The position numbers and the translations under genes were made by a program. A stretch of DNA of 64,000 nt from Halichondria panicea (Eukaryota > Porifera > Demospongiae > Suberitida > Halichondriidae): NCBI RefSeq assembly GCF_963675165.1, contig NC_087377.1, forward strand, positions 14,814,198 through 14,878,197, in the 5' to 3' direction. Positions 34,208 to 59,900 of the stretch are shown piece after piece. Each line of letters starts with the position of its first letter. Position 1 is the first letter of the stretch. Under the pieces are notes generated by a model. It saw only the letters and a list, made by a program, of their open reading frames with translations, searched no databases and was not told the origin of the DNA.

Positions 34208-35185
34208 ATGAAGGAGGGAAATATCATTGCTTTTCATGGAGGGGCTGGAGACCTTCTCGATCGCATTGGATTCTACGATTTGGAAGATTTGACACGTAGT
34301 ATATGTCCAAGTCGATAATTTTTGGTGGATCTGGTGGCAGCACGTTTGACGATTTCACGACTAAATCCAGTATTGTTGGAATCCAGAAGATTTACATTCG
34401 TGCAGGAAATCAAGTAGACGGGATTCAGGTTGTCTATCGACTTGCCAACGGGCAGACTTGGACTAGCGGCCAACACGGTGGAGGCGGTGGAACAGACTAC
34501 TCCTTTTCTGTCGGAGAAGGCAAATTCATTTCCAAAATTGAAGGCAAGACAAACGAAACTCTGGTCGATCAGCTCACTTTTACTGTGACAAACGACAATG
34601 GCTCGACAACAATTCATGGCCCGTATGGCACTACTGGAAACACTCCTTTTTCTGTGGAAGGAAATGTTATAGCTGTTTGTGGTCGTGCGGACAATCTCCT
34701 TGATGGTGTCGGTTTCTATCTGTATGCGCCACTGAATAAGAGTAAACAATTCGGAGGAAGTAACGGAACTGCTTTTAACAATGACCCTAACACACACACT
34801 AGTGCTATGGCTGCATGGTCCTGGTTTGAAGATCTCCAAGCTATATATCAGATCTGGCGACCAAGTAAACGGTATTCAAGCCGAGTATGTTGCTCTCGGA
34901 GGATCTATTGTCAAGGGTCCTTCGTTTGGCGGCACTGAGGGATCTTCACATGTCATGGTCGTTGGACTGGACGAGGTCATCGAGAAAATGGAAGGAATGA
35001 CAAAATTGGAGCTCATTGATCAGGTCACCTTCACTATGAGGAACACCAAGGGAGTGAGACGCACTGCTGGGCCATATGGTAAGACTGGAAATACACCTTT
35101 TTCTGTTACTGCTCTTAATGGCATCCAAGGACTCTACGGCCGGGCAGGAGACCTTATAGATGCTCTCGGAGTTTATTACAACTGA
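34208..35185 (+). pseudogene. Jacalin-like lectin domains with frameshifts at both junctions
   Basis: Three jacalin-type units lie in a row. A C-terminal fragment (about 34208-34290) contains IIAFHGGAGDLLDRIGFY. A full domain starts at ATG 34303 (IIFGGSGGSTFDDF, GPYGTTGNTPFS, VCGRADNLLDGVGFYLY). A second full domain runs to TGA 35183-35185 (KQFGGSNGTAF, then KLYIRSGDQVNGIQ, GPYGKTGNTPFS, LYGRAGDLIDALGVYYN). The first and third units share one frame and the middle unit is in another, so a shift is needed near 34290-34303 and again near 34800-34830. No splice sites explain this. Jacalin folds bind mannose-type sugars through the N-terminal GG loop and the C-terminal GxxGDxxD loop, which are present. 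Either a decaying gene or two sequence errors; the well-kept domains argue for recent origin. Confidence 0.7.
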
Positions 35186-44573: not shown

Positions 44574-47500
44574 ATGAATACTCTGATACTGTGTGTGTGC
44601 TTCCTCCCTGCTGCCCTAGCAGCTGTGGATCTCTCTTCCTACCCTCTCTCTCAAGAGCTAAGAGATGGGTACACTTTGCACTGGAGTTTTAATGTTGAGG
44701 AGCAGAGCATAAGGTTTGCAGTGAATGTGAGCACCACTGGATGGGTTGGACTGGGACTGTCTCCCACTGGAGGAATGCCTAACTCTGACATTGTCATTGG
44801 ATGGGTCAACGATCAAGGAAACATTTTTTTTCATGTAAGTAAAAAAATATTATCTGCAATTGCATTGCCCGGCATTACATGCGACGTTTAATGATTCAGG
44901 ATCGCTTTGCTACTGCACCAAGCCTTCCGACAGTAGATGTCAGTCAAGACTGGATCTTAGAGGATGGAACAGAACAAGATGGATTCACTGTCATTGCCTT
45001 TAGAAGAAACTGGGTCACTTGTGATCAACAAGACAGGGATGTAAAGGTCAGTGCTTATAACATAATTGTTATTGTTACTGCATGCATGTGTATGCAATTT
45101 GTATTGTACTACTGTATAGTGACTGTACTGTTCTAGCTAGTTAATTAGTTTTGTGGTTTTGTGGTGTCTATGACTTATTGTTACATTGATATACCCGTTA
45201 TTACAACTACACAACACAATACTACAATACAATACACTGCAATAACATTACAATACTGCAACAGGTGGAGACAGTTCGTGTGATCTTCAGCTGGAATGAT
45301 GCAGACCCTGTTGGTGATGATCCCGATCAAGTGATGTACCATGGCAACCAAAACCGAGGATCCTTCAGCCTTAACCTTCTCGGAATAGAGCAAGAAATTC
45401 CACCGGAGCCAGCTGATGTGCAAGTACTCACTACCACCGTCACTAATGTAAGGCTGTCACTAATGCATGCTAATTATAGGTCAATTGTCTAGAAGTATGC
45501 GCTCTGACTCATCTATATCAGCTAGAAGCCCATAATTATATTAAGCCGGATGGGCTCCTGCATGTCTATTTATTTAGATCTGCTGCATGTACGTGTACAG
45601 TATATGTGTATACTCTCGTTAATCCGGTCACCCCTGGGATGTGCAGCTTGGCCGGAATAGCGAAGTGGTTGTATATTGCAGGAAATAACCGCGGCTAAAG
45701 CAGTCCATACATCAAAATCTAATAACTAATTTGCAACTCTGTCTCGAATCATTAATGCTTCTCTATACTTAAGTGTAATCTACCAAACCCCCACACCTAA
45801 AACGTCCGTAATACTGAAAAATATCTAGTTATAGGGACAGCCAGAACTGGGGCCGGTATACGGAATAGCAAGTGGCTGCATTTCAGAGCGAGTTTTATGC
45901 AGTAAAGACCAAGCTAGCCAAACGAAACGATTGGTATATCGAGGTGACTGAACTTCGGAGAGCCGTCTGTGTACATGTGAATGAATGCGTGCATCACAGG
46001 AAATGCTATATTATGGTTTAGGGTTTATGCCACCATTATACAACTCAGCATATCGGGTTTCAAATGCAAGGTTAAGTGTAGTGTTTCCACCCACACATCA
46101 AATGAATATTATCAGTTAAAAATCATGAAACTAGAAATTTTCTCTCGGCAAAATTTTAATGTCGGTATAATTATAGGAAATATTGAGCTTTTTTCTTAAA
46201 AAGACGATTATATAGCATTCATACACAGTACACTTCTTTTGTAGAGAAAAGCTAGCTCATGACTGATATTCATAAGGCCACACCAAATTGAACCACAACA
46301 ACACACCACTTTAGTAAAACATTACAACATTTTGCTAGATCACATGGCTATTCGACCTCTGACCTGGACCACTAATTTGTTTATTTTTTTGGGCATTCTG
46401 CAAAAAATATGATCCGGAAATTCCGTGAAACATAAGATTAATTTGGTGTGGCCTAATCAATCACTATACCGTAACCTAGACACTGCATGTGTAACTATTG
46501 TGAATTGCATGCAAAGCAATAATTATAAGATACATGATATGCACTTGCATACAATTCGCCAATAATTAATCCCATTTTGCTGAGTTGTAGATGGTGACGT
46601 AAACGTGAGGCAATTATAGAAATCAACAGTTGATACAAACAAGTTATGAAACAACAGGTGTATCCGTTGTGAAGGTTTACGTAGCTTCTGACAAACAAAC
46701 TAGATCCCAACTGACAGTTTGTAAAATATCACAACACAAACAATAAGTGCATATTTTACTTTGTCCTGGTATGCAACCCACCACACACCACACACTCGTG
46801 TAGTGTTAATGAGATTCATAATGTTTATTAATGTTATTCATTGCACATGACGTTTTTTGCTTAGCTAGCTGCTAGAACTATTATAGATTATCTTTGGCTA
46901 CAAATACGGCAGACTTAAACAAGGTAAGAGTAGCTGTTTAGGCCCTCAAAAGATAGAGTATGTTGTTATAATTATGTTTCCTTGATGGGAAGTAAAAAAT
47001 GTCCAAAACTTTCTTAGCTATGCTAGCTTCTTTAGCTCTGACAGCCACTCTAGAGGTAAGCTATTTTTTGTGTATCTCAAGAATACAATAACTCTTACTC
47101 TTCCCATCAAGGATACTAGTACCTAGCTATGAGATGTTCATCTAGCCTTGTTTTTGAAGCTTGATCTTGGCATCTTCAACGCCGTATTTGCAGTTCTCTT
47201 TCTGAAAGTGGCATGACGTCATCATGGGACTAATTAGCATAATTGAATTAAGCTAATTAGTTTTTTGGAAAAAGAAAACATTGAGCTTAATTTGGATCAT
47301 TTTGATGCAGCATACACTGTATATTGCAAATAATACAGCAGTATAAACATAGTGTAAATTTTGGTGTTGAAATCTGGACCCGGGCCTTAAGTGCGCAGAG
47401 ATGTCTATTCATTTAGATCTGCTGCATGTACGTGTACAGTATATGTGTATACTCTCGTTAATCCGGTCACCCTTGGGATGTGCAGCTTGGCCGGAATAGC

Positions 47501-51097: not shown

Positions 51098-52250
51098 AGT
51101 AAATGACATTCTGAACTTGAAACAATTTATTGTTTAGCATCGAGTGTAGTTTAGTTCTCGGTTTACTGTATTTGAGCTGTATTGTATTAATCAAAGTGAA
51201 TAGAGTATCAAGTCGCCCTAAAAAAACTCTGAAACAGATCCTCAGCTCTGCTCATACCCAGTAGAGCATTCAACATGACACACACTACATACATACAATA
51301 ATTTGCAATGAGCAAAAAAGGTATATGACCCTGGCATCGGTCTGGAATACGTTATTTTTCAGGGGGAGGGGGGTCAAATTTTATTTTCGCCAATTTTGCT
51401 TAGAAGCAGAGATATACAATCAAAAGTCTTGCTCTTGTACTAGCCTCGATATCATGAGCGGTTTGTTCTCGAGGTCACCGCACAGCTGGCTTTGATAACT
51501 TGTATCTCTGCTTCTGAGCAAAATTGGTAAAAATTAAATTTGACCCCCTGAAAAATAACGTTTTAAACTTACAGACACTAAAAACTAACAATATTCATAC
51601 TCTGTCTCAAGTACCAGTGGAACAAAACTGCTACATGTACTGATACCCAAACCAGAGCGCAGTGTTGGTTGGACTCCGCCCAACTAACAAATGTCACAAA
51701 TGATAATATGGGCAACAGATATATAAACTCAAAATAAATCAATTGTCTTGGGTGAGATCAGGAGCACATTACAGAAGGAGCGTCAAACTGTGCATGGGTT
51801 CGGAAATCGCATCTCGTGTCCTTTCCTAAACGCCGCATTGCGTAAGTACTATGTACATAAATTACAGACCAGCGGTCAGCCTGTGAATATCATTATGAAC
51901 GGATTTTGTATGTAGTTGCAGCAGCAGGAGAGCTAGGTTGAGCCAGAACGAGCTAAAATGAATAGCTAGGTCATCTTTGATGGATGTTGGTATACATCAT
52001 GGAAGAGACTGCATGCATGCATGTCATTTGTGAGGTACAGAAAGTTCTGAAATAGGAGCATATCCAGTCACTTTGTACATAGAAAGTTTGCTAGACTAGA
52101 CATAGACTAACACATACTGTAATGTGCTCCTGGTGAGAACCATATCCAGAGAGGGGCTTTTTGCTGCTTTCGACCCAACCCCCTATTAGCACTACTGTGC
52201 TAATGATTGAATACCATGATGCAATCATCACTCTGCTCTGTGCTCCGCAC
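51098..52250. other. Intergenic: upstream region of monooxygenase gene 2, cut off by the transposon
   Basis: Contains the foldback element at 51345-51595 and an inverted pair caggagcacattacag (51766) / ctgtaatgtgctcctg (52117). The original upstream promoter sequence of the second monooxygenase gene must lie here, now 4.7 kb from its TATA box. Confidence 0.55.
51345..51595. mobile_element. ~250-bp foldback element
   Basis: aatacgttatttttcagggg ... ccaattttgcttagaagcag at the left pairs with ctgcttctgagcaaaattgg ... ccccctgaaaaataacgtt at the right. A partial copy lies at 32615-32815. Confidence 0.85.
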
Positions 52251-52282
52251 CATAGATAAACGAGATAGAGGGATTGGAAACG
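52251..52282 (+). repeat. Left terminal inverted repeat of the P-like transposon
   Basis: 32 bp, exact complement of 56875-56906; pairing stops at the next base. Confidence 0.97.
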
Positions 52283-52343
52283 ACAAAACTCCTCGAATAC
52301 TATCCGCGTTTCGCTGCGGTTTAATCGAGGCTTACGTTTGATT

Positions 52344-53399
52344 ATGGCTGAGGCTCAGGCTAGGACAAAGACACCTTCAAACAAACCATCTATGAAGAAG
52401 CCATCGAACAAGAAAATAGAAGACGAGTTGGAAATTGTGTTGAATGCTATTGGATGTGTGTTAAAGACGGAAGAAGAAATTGATGTTAAAGTAGAAAGTA
52501 AAAGATCTATACAACAAGTTGTGGAATTGTCACAGTCAGCTGAAAAGAAGGCCATACTTCAAACATTTTGTCTGGAACTAGTAGCTGTGATAAACAAAAC
52601 ACTGAAGCACTTTGGGAGAGTCAGAGAACACACAGCAAAAGAGCGAGCTCAAACATTATTCTTCACGTCATCACAGCAGGAACTACCTGGTGTATGGAAA
52701 CATGGTTGTGCCCAGCTAGGAATATCAGTTGTCAGTGTACATCAACAGCAGTCAGTAAATCGAGTTTTGTTCGAAAAAGTTTTGGCTAGGAGTCTAAGTC
52801 ACTGTGAAGATAATTCAAGTAAGCTTACCCGTAAACGAGAAGATCTTTCATGTGACGAATGTAATGCTGTTAGATATGCAGCCGGCTATACAACAAAAAA
52901 GCTATTAGAAGTGTATAAAAAAGTTAATTCATGTACTGCTGCTAACTTTGTTGAATGTCTCTCTCAAATGAAAATGGTGGGTCATCGACATGGAAGTATT
53001 GAAGACTGCTCTTTTTACGACTTTTCAATGGAATGGATGGCAAACATTGACAGAGGTGGACTGTTCTACGTAGATGACAAAAGTTTTATGCTGTTTAAAG
53101 CTATTGAAATAAAAACACAAGAATTGCTCCCACAGCACTTACGAACACAACAAACGAGCAGTAAGGAGTTGATTGCTGAAGTAGTAGCCGATGATGATGT
53201 ACAATTTTGGTGGTCTATGATATCCATTGACATTGATTTAGAGATTGAACAATCACAATTGCTGGAGGAGATAATTGAAAAGTGGATAACTATGAGAGGT
53301 TTTTCAATGGTGTCTTCTTGGCTTGAGCAGTACAAGCTAGCCAAGCAAAAGAATGTCAAAAGATCAAAAAGTCTCAGAAAAGATCTCAGTACTGACTAG
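52344..53399 (+). CDS. Transposon-borne accessory ORF of unknown function
   Basis: An uninterrupted 351-aa ORF, ATG 93 bp inside the left terminal repeat, ending TAG. The start is lysine/proline rich (KTPSNKPSMKKPSNKK). A mostly helical, charged body follows, with CDEC next to NAVRYAAGYTTKKLLEVYKK, and the basic tail is KQKNVKRSKSLRKDLS. I do not recognise the family. The AGYxxxKL phrase is reminiscent of a motif near the C terminus of several DDE transposase groups, which is only a hint. It lies convergent to the transposase inside the same terminal repeats, with 171 bp between stops, so it is likely mobilised as part of the element. A DNA-binding or transposition-regulating role is speculation. 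Confidence 0.8.
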   Translation: MAEAQARTKTPSNKPSMKKPSNKKIEDELEIVLNAIGCVLKTEEEIDVKVESKRSIQQVVELSQSAEKKAILQTFCLELVAVINKTLKHFGRVREHTAKERAQTLFFTSSQQELPGVWKHGCAQLGISVVSVHQQQSVNRVLFEKVLARSLSHCEDNSSKLTRKREDLSCDECNAVRYAAGYTTKKLLEVYKKVNSCTAANFVECLSQMKMVGHRHGSIEDCSFYDFSMEWMANIDRGGLFYVDDKSFMLFKAIEIKTQELLPQHLRTQQTSSKELIAEVVADDDVQFWWSMISIDIDLEIEQSQLLEEIIEKWITMRGFSMVSSWLEQYKLAKQKNVKRSKSLRKDLSTD

Positions 53400-53570
53400 C
53401 TGTAGCTGTGTACATGTATTAATACTTTGGTGCAATATTATGTTTCTCTCGTTTTAGGGATATTACTTATCTAATTACAAGTATGTATTGAAGTTACGAT
53501 AGTAATTAATACAGTCATGGAATTATAGAGTTAAAAACAACATGAAACACAATAATACATACAACACACC

Positions 53571-56333
53571 CTACTTATGTCTAGGTCTCTTCTTAAGGGG
53601 AGTGTCATCAACTACTTCCTCTTCATTAAATAGCCTTCTCTTTTTAGACGAATTTCCCCTTACTGGTAGCATGGAAAGACTGCCTTGAACTCGAATTGAT
53701 TGGGAAGATTGCAAGCAAGATTGTAGAGTAGGGTTAGTACAAAATCCTCCTCTACTACGCAACTGTCCAAAATAGTTTTCTAATGGATCTTGAGAGAAAC
53801 ATTCGCTGAGTAAGTATCGACCAGACACACATGGTAGACTAAACAAGTATCGAATGACAGCCACAAATGATTTCACTGCAAAAATAGATATGCACATACC
53901 TATACATGTATGTATATGCTATATGTAATTACCAGTAATCCTTAATCCTTCCCTAGTTGCCCTGCTCAGAAGCATTGTTGGTTTTTCTGCCTTCGGTACA
54001 TCAGTTCTTGTTTCCACACTATCCTCCCATTCTTTGAGGTATCCTAGGAAATCTTTTTCCAACCACTGCAATAGAAGTGTGTGTACAGTGTGTTATAAAT
54101 GGTATGTTGCCATTTTAATCTTACATTTAGGCGTGCATCGTCAGCATCTTCATATGGCTTCAAGTTGTGTTTTCTCCGTTTTAAGTATACTTTTGGGTGA
54201 CGTACATTAAGACAGTCGAACAACTTATCCATCATGCGCACGAATCTTTGCGTTTCAAATGTGTCCACAGACCCTTGCATACACAATCCTTCAGCGACTG
54301 ATTCACTTAATACCTGTGCATAACGATGTATTAATTTAATAACAAGGCATTTCCTTACCTCGGCTGCAAGGCTCACTTTCATTCTTGAATACGAATTTAG
54401 ATCAACATGTTCTTTCGAAAGTTTTTTAAGAAGAAATAGTCCCTCTGACCTCTTTCCCATTGATACTTTGCCATTGTAGAGGGAGCGCAAATGATCCCAG
54501 CTAATATGTTTGCCATTGATCTGTGAACAGATTCATAATTTGAAAGAGCAAACAACCACATGATTTATACTCACCCACAGTTTTCTTGTCCATCCATGCC
54601 CAAAGGAATGTGACCAACAATTACGCGTTGTTTTAATAAGGTGAGGGATGTCTGAAAAGAAGTGAATGTATCGTTCTTCAGTAGTATATGGATTTTTAAC
54701 TCGGTGACAAACATCATCCTTACTAACAGAGTGTATATTAAATAGCTTTCGATTTGTTGAAGCGCCATCTCCGGTTACTGCTATTACTTTAAAACCAAGT
54801 CTCTCTAATCGTTCTATTGCCTCCCAGACCATGAAAAATAGCGATGATCCTGTTACTTCAGCTGTAGCAAAATGAGCATACGGAAAATGCAATCCAGTAA
54901 AAACACCTCTTACCATAAGGCAAAGCAAATGTGTTGCAACGCTATTATCGGAAATGTTGCTCTCGCTTAGTTGATTTTCTACATCACTCAAATGAACGAA
55001 ACCAATCACATTATGATGATGCTTATCATAGACCAAACTCTCTCGCAACTTCATTTCATCTATTAAAATTACAATGAACTTTTTCCACTCCAATAGTCCA
55101 TGTTTACTAGCTTCTTCCAGCAACATTTTATCAACTTCGGATTGGAAACCACACTTAACTTTGAATACATGAGAATAATCTCTAAGTGTTCTTTCTGATG
55201 GTAGTCTTATAAAGCCAGAAGAACGCAAGGAATGATAAGCAGCTGAGGAGAGATACTTTAGATTTAAACACCACCTTATCATTGTGGGATGCCACCTCAT
55301 TTGTGCAGCGTTCATCACTGTTGCTGCTTTCAGTTGTTGATCCCAGAAGAGCCTTTTAAAAGAACCTTCAGGATAAGCTTTCAAAATTGAATCACTTCTT
55401 TGTACCATTATACCACGTAGCTCTTGATGTAGAGGCTCATCTACACTAACTCCTTTTGAATCAGATGATTCCTGTATTTTAGTTTTTAACCGTTTCACTT
55501 CAATCTCCATAAATTTACAACGACTTCGTAGACTTTTTAGCTTCTCTGTTCTTTGAGGAGTCTTTAAATACCGATCGTTAGTATGCATGCTTGCATCCTG
55601 ATTTGCACTTGAATATCGGCTATGCAACGAACGTAAAGTACATCTGTACTTAGAGCAATTAATACATTTTTCACCATTCACTAACAGTTCGCAATTAATT
55701 GTTCGTACAGTTTTTGAGTACGTTTGCTTGCCATTTGCAACAGGGAATCCACTGTCTAACTGAGCTTTTATTTCTCCATTAGGACTCAATAATTTTCCTT
55801 TGCGTGACACAATCATACCCACAAAATGCGGATCAGGGTTACCAGTACACACAGTACTTGATTGAATTACATCCAAAAGCTGTCTGAAACTCGAAAAACT
55901 TATTAGCGTAAATGGAATTGATGACAGTACTTTGGTATTTCCTGCGTCAACTTTGTGACCGTGAACAAACAATTCCCAAGATAAATCAACATTTACTAAC
56001 AATGTATGTGTTATAACCAGAGGTTGACTTGAAGTAGAAGCTTCAGATGATATCTTACAGAGTTTGATTGCTGTTATTGGCCTTTCAGGTGATGTTTGAT
56101 TACTCCATGTCATATCAAGGGTAGGCACTACGCGATCATGAAAATCTTCCAGAGTATTAACCTCAACATTTTGTTCTTTATTAGATGTCGATGGAACAGC
56201 GGATATGCTTTCCTGTAGCAAGTTATTGACATTATCATTGTGTTTTTATACTTATATACTTGCAACATACTTTCTTTTTCTGTTTTTCACTTTCCCAATT
56301 TTTGGCTTGGTAGAATCTCAACTTTCGCGGCAT
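53571..56333 (-). CDS. P-element/THAP9-type transposase
   Basis: Five exons give 844 aa: 56271-56333, 54575-56212, 54125-54520, 53933-54065, 53571-53875 (stop TAG). A short basic N terminus (MPRKLRFYQAKNWESEKQKKK) is followed by a Cys cluster C-x8-C-x2-C-x4-C (KCINCSKYRCTLRSL) and a coiled-coil-like stretch (LKSLRSRCKFMEIEVKRLKTK). The P-element-type catalytic region comes next (MRWHPTMIRWCLNL, FIVILIDEMKLRESLVYD, VIAVTGDGASTNRKLF, FFSDIPHLIKTTRN). The family's C-terminal QDPLENYFGQLRSRGG is near 53770. Acidic residues at about 55058, 54767 and 53778 are candidates for the RNase H-like catalytic set. No C2CH THAP zinc finger is visible at the N terminus, unlike Drosophila P or human THAP9. 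All splice phases agree and no stop or frameshift is seen. Confidence 0.92.
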
Positions 56334-56874
56334 TTTACTTCTCTGATTTTCTAAGAAACGGATTATAACAAAACACAGTCATTCTCATTCAACAAATCCA
56401 CAGCTTTTAAATTGCCCAATATCATAGTAATAACTATTGGAGCACTTTAATAATAGGTACGGAAACATTACACACTTTTTATACAAAAAGTAACTGACAC
56501 AGGCAAGTACATTTCTTACTATAATTGGCTAACACAATATTCTTGTTCATTCAAGTGTAAATTAGTGCCAGATATATTTTCAGCCCATTTTACAAACTAC
56601 TTTATAAGTTATAGGAACAGAAACATGAAATTTACTGAAAAAACTGCTGTTACTCACCTATACTTGCAAAAATTTTACAGCTGCACTATACCAACTTTAT
56701 GACAGTGTATGCCACGTGGGTGAACACATTTTACCACTGTAAACGTCACTGATGAGACTTCCTAGCTTTGGTTAAACGATTTTTCACATAGCACAAAGCT
56801 ATTTCGAGGGCGAAACGCGGTTGTTATTTGGGGGTGTTACGTCACATAAGCAAATTGTGTAGCATCACGTGATC

Positions 56875-56906
56875 CGTTTCCAATCCCTCTATCTCGTTTA
56901 TCTATG
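56875..56906 (-). repeat. Right terminal inverted repeat of the P-like transposon
   Basis: Exact complement of 52251-52282; followed at once by the TCCGCAC target duplication. Confidence 0.97.
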
Positions 56907-56921
56907 TCCGCACGCACAGGG

Positions 56922-56929
56922 TATAAAAG
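56922..56929 (+). promoter_or_regulatory. TATA box of monooxygenase gene 2
   Basis: TATAAAAG lies 48 bp before the ATG at 56970, matching the paralog. It is only 15 bp beyond the right end of the transposon and 8 bp past the target duplication. Confidence 0.8.
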
Positions 56930-56969: not shown

Positions 56970-59900
56970 ATGAATACTCTGATACTGTGTGTGTGCCTCC
57001 TCCCTGCTGCCCTAGCAGCTGTAGATCTCTCTTCCTACCCTCTCTCTCAAGAGCTAAGAGATGGGTACACATTGCACTGGAGCTTTAATGTTGAGGAGCA
57101 GAGCATAAGGTTTGCAGTGAATGTGAGCACCACTGGATGGGTTGGACTGGGACTGTCTCCCACTGGAGGAATGCCTAACTCTGACATTGTCATTGGATGG
57201 GTCAACAATGAAGGACAAGCCTTTTTGAATGTGAGCAATAATGAATCTGCAATTGCATTGTCATTCGGCATTTAATTAACGATTCAGGATCGCTTTGCTA
57301 CTGCACAAAGCCTTCCAACAGTAGATGTCAGTCAAGACTGGATCCTAGAGGCAGGAGAGCAAGTGGATGGATTCACTGTTCTTGCCTTTAGAAGAGATTG
57401 GGTCACTTGCGATACGGCACAGGACAGAGATATTAGGGTCAGCCTCCTATTGCCCATTAATTATTGTCATTGATCTTGAAATCAACAGGTGGATACAGTT
57501 CGTGTGATTTTCAGTTGGAACGATGCTGACCCTGTTGGAGATGATCCAAATCAAGTAATGTACCATGGTAACCAAAACCGAGGGACGTTCAGTCTTAACC
57601 TCCTGGGTGGTCAACAAGACCCACCCCCTGACCCTGCCGACCTGCAAACATTAAGTATCACTGTGTCTAATGTAAGTGCTCCTCGTTTACTCATTATAGT
57701 CTATAAAGATATGTGACCTGAAAATATTATGTCTGCATGTATGCATGAATGTCTGAGTGAGGTGTTTGATGCATGGCCATTAATTACACTAACGTTTATT
57801 CATCCATTCATAGCATAAACAAAGTAAGGTTGTTCTATGTGTGTGTATGCTTAACCACCACCTATATATATACGCACCAACTTGTGGTTTGAGAGTGACG
57901 TATATAGTATGACATTATTATATACATGTTGTCAGCTTTAACGCAGATTCAACAACAATATAGCTTAGATTAGGCAACAAAGAGACACTGACAAAAAAAA
58001 CAATTAAGAGTAGCACATGGACAATACAGGAAACAGTCTCTAGAACATTCTATACACAAAAAATAGAACTACTATAAATAGCTATTACATAAACGTCCTG
58101 TTCAGTCAACCACCTGATTAACTATCTACTTCAACAGCACCAACTTGTGGTTTGAGAGTGACGTATATAGTATGACATTATTATATACATGTACCGTAAC
58201 ATGGTTTATACTACAACTGCCATAGTTGCAAACATTCGTTACTAGTTAATCTACTTGATATTAGTTCTCACCATGTATAGACTTTACAACACTCGATTAG
58301 GTTAGATTCACTTTCTCATTTATAATTTCATTGGGATTCTACCTCACGTGATAAGTGATAGGGTTACATAAGAGATAAACATAAAATGACGTAATCATAA
58401 GGTGATAAAGTTCCAACAATAGGTGCATGGATATATATACTCCTCTTTTATGAACTCCTGATGCCGCCACGGATGACACCATAATAAATTTATCTGGTAT
58501 AATAGCCATTTGAGTAATTATACACACAAGAGAAATGTCAGTATAAAGCAACTAAACTATACATGTATTATTTCGGCATGCTAAGTCAGCTGGCATTATT
58601 GACCTCTGCAATCTTACACTCAGCACATTTTTCAGTGCAATCAGTGCTTGGCTGGCTTTATCAGCCACATGTTTTGAAATTAGATCACATTCATGAACAT
58701 CTGCTATAAAAACAAACCAAACCCTTCCGATAATTATTCTTAGTGCTGATCACATGATCTCCAGCCAATCAGCTTTCTGAAAGTAGTCAGGTGACCATGG
58801 ATTAAATAACTTAATCCACACTTAAGTGTGCTTTAAGTTGGTTTGTTAAATGCACACTATTCAAACAATCATAATACAAGCAGATTGAATCTGAATGTCA
58901 TCATAATTATAATAATAATACAAGCAGATTGAATATGTACACAAGCAAAGCTGAAAAGTATTAGAAAGTTGAATGTTATTGTTTCGACTTGTTTCATGTG
59001 TAGTAAGTGTACCAAATTGCTAACTTGACCATATATAGCATCGCTTTTTCGTCTGGAGAAATAGGCTCAGCTTGCTTCGAAGATGTACGTACCTGTACCT
59101 AAGCCAGATCCATATAATTGTTTCATCAAAGGTGCTTCGAATATCATAGCTTTCCAAAAGAGCAAACCAGATACTCATTGCCATATAGTTTGCGCACAAA
59201 GTTTCCCATCCAGTAAGCCAGATCAGCTGGAGGCATATCCAGTAGTGGGATCGGGACTATTGGTCAGCAGGAGAAATAAGTCGAGAACATGCCCAGTCAG
59301 TCCAGATAGCTTTAGCTCCTTCTCCTTTGCATCAGTTACTGGATCTACAAACCTACTAAAACTTGCTATTATACGTCTAGCTAGCCATGGCACCAGCAAC
59401 TGATTTAGAATGTAGCTAGATCTAGCTGCCACGAGGCTAGAGCTCACGTGACAGCACTAAATTGTTTAGAATACACCTAGCCAAGTCATGTGTTTTAATG
59501 CTGGTGCACTCGGATGGCCTCTCGGTTACGTAATGCACTCGGCTGCGCCTCGAGCACCACGTTAACCTCGAGGCCATCCTCGGCATGCAGATTAAAACAC
59601 TTAATCTTGGCTAGGTGTGTTCTAAATAATACATAGATGCATGCTAATGAATAGTAGAATCTCAATATAGAGCCGGACCAGACATTTCCGGATTATAACG
59701 GATGTCATTAATTGCTTATTAACGAAGAAACTTGTGTTAACTTTCTCCAATCAGTCTCCCTTAAGACTCCCAAGTTTTCAGTACTTGCAAGACAAGACAG
59801 GAAATACATACCACAAGTATTTTTGCATAGTTTCACAAGGATGACATCACAAAAACATTGTTTCATTATAAGGAGTGCATAATGATGACACCCAACAACT

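Follow-up and report, generated by a model that had tools for sequence, protein, structure and literature searches.

We describe a complete two-gene transposon in the sponge Halichondria panicea, at positions 52251-56906 of a 64,000-nt stretch of contig NC_087377.1 (positions 14,814,198 to 14,878,197 of the forward strand; hereafter the window), and propose that it is probably an autonomous cut-and-paste element from a two-gene branch of the P superfamily that does without the THAP domain. Its 4656 bp comprise complete ends and two open, convergent genes, one encoding a transposase with a P-type catalytic core (P2) and the other a protein, P1, that would act as a dedicated subunit needed for transposition, most likely standing in for the transposase's missing C-terminal domain.

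The transposase gene lies on the minus strand, where a splice model with five GT-AG introns of 45-59 nt joins six coding exons into a protein of 829 amino acids. In this model the start codon is at 56333 in exon 1 (56271-56333), and exon 2 (54575-56212) encodes a region with four cysteines (C143, C195, C204 and C207), a coiled-coil-like stretch seen by eye, a sub-threshold helix-turn-helix (HTH), the N-terminal part of a ribonuclease H (RNase H) fold with D406 and D503, and the start of a guanosine triphosphate (GTP)-binding insertion. The insertion continues in exon 3 (54359-54520), which is followed by exons 4 (54125-54313) and 5 (53933-54065), and exon 6 (53571-53875) carries the C-terminal part of the RNase H fold with E761, a basic tail and the stop codon (53571-53573). 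Three Pfam families score above cut-off, PF21787, PF21788 and PF21789, together corresponding to an RNase H fold into which a GTP-binding domain is inserted (E-values of 7.9e-25 for the TNP-like RNaseH_N, 7.1e-17 for the GBD and 1.6e-7 for the RNaseH_C), and the Tnp_P_element HTH matches residues 320-365 under its cut-off (E 0.058). The single solved relative found is the Drosophila P transposase (PDB 6p5a, 2.1e-16), in which D406, D503 and E761 align with chain residues 230, 303 and 531, which we take to be the catalytic residues of the fly enzyme; D406 is conserved in all eight aligned sequences and D503 in seven of them. By this predicted catalytic core the transposase is a member of the P superfamily. 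Upstream of its start codon, a GTGAGT-like donor seen by eye on the minus strand within 56350-56660 may mark a 5' untranslated exon.

Outside the core the protein departs from the P element at both ends. No THAP domain was matched in the transposase by Pfam at E≤1, and of 14 THAP matches in the genome, 13 share a contig with transposase or P1 clusters, from which they are at least 11.8 kb distant, while the contig of the other has no such cluster. THAP is a C2CH module with a cysteine spacing unlike that of the unnamed N-terminal region found in its place, where C143, C195, C204 and C207 are invariant in eight of eight aligned sequences; these represent seven families, since C9c and C6, at 98% identity, belong to a single family, and the C9a row starts only at about residue 139. 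The difference in spacing suggests a new, putatively zinc-binding DNA-recognition region. At the other terminus, the P transposase carries an acidic C-terminal domain (PMC7776569 and PMC10983969, in the text available), and here 51 residues, the basic tail among them, follow the RNaseH_C match. When the last exon is aligned to ten relatives by tblastn, the alignment reaches query residue 825-829 in nine and stops at 778 in the tenth (C1e), and a stop codon lies within five residues of the window protein's end position in all ten. The transposase thus ends about 50 residues past its catalytic core, as do ten of ten relatives, and therefore has no room for the acidic C-terminal domain, which, judged by length, is absent. 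A canonical, THAP-type P element was ruled out by the missing THAP match, a 7-bp target duplication and this lack of room. The sequence-only reading of the same stretch had described a P-element-like transposon with perfect 32-bp terminal repeats, a 7-bp target duplication, 11-bp subterminal inverted repeats, a second convergent gene and an unbroken five-exon transposase; the ends and the second gene are as it said, the transposase frame is open and has six coding exons in the splice model, and the likeness to P elements stands for the core and fails for the canonical form.

P1 is a one-exon open frame of 351 amino acids on the plus strand (52344-53399), its stop codon separated by 171 nt from that of the transposase. 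It belongs to no known family, with no Pfam match over cut-off and no NCBIfam match at E≤1. Searches of viral and prokaryote collections confirmed no relatives. Within the genome (131 Mb in 39 contigs, with spliced genes), we found at least 63 P1 matches in at least 51 clusters, the window's included, and at least 92 transposase matches in at least 50 clusters, these counts being lower bounds drawn from the best-scoring candidates only. Counted at distances of up to 8 kb, 35 transposase clusters out of 50 have a P1 cluster for a neighbour, and every one of these pairs is convergent, with none divergent and none tandem; the pairs are partly non-independent, eight being copies of the window family and some others near-identical to each other. 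At one unpaired cluster, C1:12625816, a P1 match sits just outside the 8-kb limit. The two-gene layout is therefore common to many diverged families in this genome, which extends the earlier proposal of a two-gene lineage well beyond a single element. Eleven aligned P1 proteins are 22-53% identical to that of the window, with LTxxExNAxRYxAGYV as the most conserved stretch and an N-terminal half that is conserved as well. Four P1 pairs at 53-58% amino acid identity give nonsynonymous divergence (dN) of 0.34-0.43 against saturated synonymous divergence (dS), which points to long purifying selection on P1; two pairs at 41-43% identity give dN of 0.55-0.61, again with dS saturated.

Transposition has been recent in the studied genome. 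A 200-nt query from the left end matched seven places over its full length at 98-100% identity, and a right-end query matched eight places in whole and one, on C17, in part. Seven elements are full-length (the window copy, C12, C2, C1a and C1b, both on C1, C3 and C9), and all seven are flanked by a perfect 7-bp duplication that differs in sequence each time: TCCGCAC in the window, at 52244-52250 and again at 56907-56913, and GTGAAAT, GTAGAGC, GTCTCAT, ATGCAGC, GTTACAC and GTAAAAC elsewhere. Between pairs of the six fully aligned copies there are 0-5 substitutions over 4656 bp, and C9 and C1a show none in the 1150-nt and 3480-nt stretches over which they were compared. That seven sites carry near-identical full copies, every one flanked by a separate duplication, is strong evidence of recent activity, as the sequence-only reading had supposed; the search of the host genome that it proposed, for the terminus and both reading frames, finds neither ends nor genes unique. 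A decayed relic was ruled out by the same near-identical copies with perfect duplications. Four of the seven, namely the window copy, C12, C9 and C1a, keep both genes open; the transposases of C2 and of C3 have one nonsense codon each, C1b has a 4-bp insertion close to the P1 start, and an eighth copy, on C4, has lost its left end and contains an internal deletion. Together with a second family described below (GTTTTAC), the eight target sites resemble GTNNNAC, with G at position 1 in six, T at position 2 in seven, and A or G at position 6 and C or T at position 7 in all eight; the window site is the exception at position 2. No empty allele of the window site was found in the same assembly among the 40 of 69 candidates scored, the search returning nothing beyond the two flanks themselves, a flank repeat and, nearby, an incomplete copy of the start of the neighbouring gene. 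In the C9 copy (L010 with L040), another element, about 3.8 kb long and with inverted ends, is nested just beyond the P1 stop codon and has long frames on both strands, with one integrase-like and one RING-finger-like motif seen by eye.

The ends of the window copy are formed by 32-bp terminal inverted repeats at 52251-52282 (plus strand) and 56875-56906 (minus strand), identical at 32 of 32 positions and beginning with CA, as those of P elements do. Inside them lies the subterminal repeat CCGCGTTTCGC, at 52304-52314 on the plus strand, 53 nt from the left, P1-side end, and as its reverse complement at 56810-56820, 86 nt from the right, transposase-side end; a simple equal-base estimate puts the chance expectation for such 11-mer pairs, within 120 nt of both ends, at about 0.003, and we consider the repeat a candidate transposase binding site. 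The left terminal repeat is identical at the left end of the six other full copies. Among the eight right ends read, only that of the window copy is perfect, right and left repeats agreeing at 30 of 32 positions in the other seven (six full copies and one truncated). Relative to the majority of the six aligned copies, the window copy has just two substitutions, and because both fall here and equalise the right repeat with the left, its perfect repeats are a private event, atypical of the family. The likeliest cause would be end-to-end conversion, one end having been copied over the other as the DNA was repaired.

The two-gene layout recurs in a second complete family, which occupies 4622 bp at C16:4252551-4257172 (locus L046, 752-5373), bounded by a 33-bp perfect terminal repeat and the 7-bp duplication GTTTTAC. 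Its P1 frame is open, as are the long and last exons of its transposase, which is 42, 36 and 45% identical to that of the window in three aligned segments. It retains CCGCGTTWCGC with unequal spacing, at 100 nt on the transposase side and, as a two-mismatch variant seen by eye, at 53 nt on the P1 side. In a scan of ten relatives for terminal repeats (exact seeds) flanked by a duplication of 7 or 8 bp, only the C16 family had them, which is no sign of decay, as several of the stretches may end short of the termini. The terminal pattern CATAGATNNANNANNNAGAGGGATTGGAAAC has 68 forward and 69 reverse occurrences in the genome, where a backward control has none in either orientation; 15 of these 137 matches belong to the eight window-family copies and 122 lie outside them. 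Among the matches listed, at least 12 facing pairs of other ends are seen, ten of them 330-546 bp and two 1445 bp apart, and further pairs about 500 and about 750 bp apart occur in L017 and L019. These pairs are probably short non-autonomous relatives mobilised by the P-like superfamily. Under a one-mismatch rule the subterminal motif is present at one of nine of their ends, and several others have less exact variants at comparable positions, seen by eye only.

What P1 does can be stated at two levels. We hold with good confidence that it is a dedicated transposition partner; that it supplies the missing C-terminal domain is our leading guess, prompted by a weak profile match. That idea predates our scans with PF12596 (Tnp_P_element_C), which lends the match some weight: in one P1 member the profile aligns over positions 61-93 with the motif LTxxExNALRYVAGYV (E 0.18), and against a 12-row P1 consensus it aligns over nearly the same positions, 60-96 (E 0.07). 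It stays a guess because the match is far under cut-off and mostly absent. The best PF12596 score on P1 is 14.3 bits against a cut-off of 22.6, the profile is unmatched in 11 of the 12 members, in seven of seven further P1 pieces (from five genes, two of them already partly among the 12) and in the C-terminal 184 residues of the consensus, and four unrelated families score about equally on the whole consensus; a genome search with PF12596 gave no match, and its control likewise gave none. Other observations also weigh against the proposal as a whole. P1 resembles no solved structure, whether searched as a single sequence (E≤1) or as a profile (E≤10); in two nearly identical P1 pairs dN is about equal to or above dS, a handful of changes that are uninformative either way; partners within 8 kb are missing from 15 transposase clusters out of 50 and from 16 P1 clusters out of 51; and that the four-cysteine region binds zinc and DNA is our inference.

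These points leave space for other accounts of P1, of which the most serious, though in our estimate rather unlikely, is a dedicated partner of independent origin, an accessory that binds ends, target or chromatin and never was a split-off transposase domain, comparable to the Myb/SANT protein of PIF/Harbinger or the RAG2-like protein of RAGL transposons. Conserved convergent pairing is indeed also seen in RAGL transposons (PMC7204232, available text) and PIF/Harbinger and ISL2EU elements usually have two frames (PMC4482050, likewise); the N-terminal half of P1 is conserved beyond the needs of a bare C-terminal domain, and the profile link just described is weak. Against this account, the window transposase and ten of ten relatives leave no room for the C-terminal domain, as fits a domain that has moved to another gene, and the best-conserved motif of P1 coincides with the P C-terminal profile match. 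A lower probability still attaches to P1 as a regulator, a repressor or host-defence antagonist that the element carries outside its transposition machine, much as the truncated 66-kDa P-element protein acts as a repressor. A separate regulator gene would account for the conservation of P1 equally well. The 66-kDa protein of Drosophila P elements is made from the same gene by splicing (PMC7776569, in the part available); a gene shared in a single orientation by very diverged families is, however, more than is expected of a regulator, and P1 has no known regulatory domain above threshold. Finally, P1 could be a captured host gene, the passenger of one lineage, as its want of a Pfam family and the 16 P1 clusters lacking a transposase nearby might suggest. 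This explanation is nearly refuted, and we give it very little credence: the convergent pair recurs 35 times with P1 proteins as divergent as those compared above, and because it recurs in diverged families the second gene is not the passenger of one element, a candidate rejected on that ground.

In the mechanism that we propose, the transposase would recognise the asymmetric subterminal CCGCGTTWCGC motifs through its four-cysteine, probably zinc-binding region and the HTH, and would dimerise by its coiled coil. The ends would be paired using GTP, as in the P transposase, then cut, and joined with a 7-bp stagger into GTNNNAC-like sites, while P1 would perform in trans the work of the C-terminal domain, be it tetramer formation and end pairing, target capture or nuclear import. 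A bolder version, which we advance tentatively and do not hold to be the likelier outcome, is that this branch of the P superfamily is an obligate two-subunit recombinase, similar in layout to RAG1/RAG2 and independent of it, in which THAP has been replaced by the four-cysteine DNA-binding region, the C-terminal domain is provided in trans from the convergent gene, and copies young enough for present activity exist in the genome. P elements are the standard example of a GTP-using transposon with one gene and a THAP domain. A lineage with an N-terminal region of another kind and a conserved partner gene would show which parts of the P machine can be exchanged, and its young copies would allow a test of whether a second protein can be a requirement for a P-type transposase.

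In its genomic setting, the right end of the element is followed after 15 bp by TATAAAAG (56922-56929), a TATA-like box, and lies 63 bp ahead of the start codon (ATG at 56970) of a reading frame with a DOMON domain. P elements prefer promoter regions (PMC7776569, text available), and one site proves nothing about a preference here. About 12 kb leftward, window positions 44574-44667 (C1:14858771) hold a 94-nt stretch that is 98% identical to the start of the DOMON-domain gene. The left flank holds, at 52144-52208, a stretch of about 65 bp that matches at least 37 other places in the genome (87-92% identity) and seems to have no connection with the element, and further away a frame with a Jacalin-like lectin domain spans 34300-34935.

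Among known systems, the nearest is the Drosophila P element (6p5a/6pe2), which shares the RNase H core with its GTP-binding insertion and the aligned DDE triad. Its terminal repeats are 31 bp long, its subterminal inverted repeats 11 bp, and its two ends are unequal in internal spacing, with binding sites placed differently at each (PMC7776569, in the text available). The window element has the terminal repeats, the 11-12-bp subterminal inverted repeats and the unequal spacing characteristic of P and THAP9; it differs in having a four-cysteine region instead of THAP, a transposase that ends after the catalytic core, the extra gene P1, and a duplication of 7 bp, in seven of seven full copies and in the C16 family, rather than 8 bp. 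Zebrafish Pdre2/THAP9 likewise has a P-type core outside flies, inverted and subterminal repeats and internally deleted relatives (PMC10983969 and PMC7776569, as far as available). It departs from our element in combining the THAP and C-terminal domains in one THAP9 protein and in its 13-bp terminal repeats and 8-bp duplications, and the available text makes no mention of a second gene for it. We found no account of a P element with two genes or without THAP among the open-access papers searched, in searches partly aimed elsewhere, and Repbase or subscription journals may record one. PIF/Harbinger and ISL2EU elements also join a DDE transposase to a second protein (PMC4482050, available part); their transposase is of another family and their second protein is Myb/SANT or YqaJ, neither of which matches P1 in Pfam at E≤1. 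The RAG1 and RAG2 families likewise match neither the transposase nor P1 in Pfam at E≤1. RAGL transposons, whose duplications are 5 bp, differ from the window element, which has the P-type core with its GTP-binding insertion. What they share with it is the arrangement of transposase and partner genes convergent inside terminal repeats (PMC7204232, in the text available), so that our proposal, if correct, would add another two-gene convergent layout of the kind thought ancestral to V(D)J recombination.

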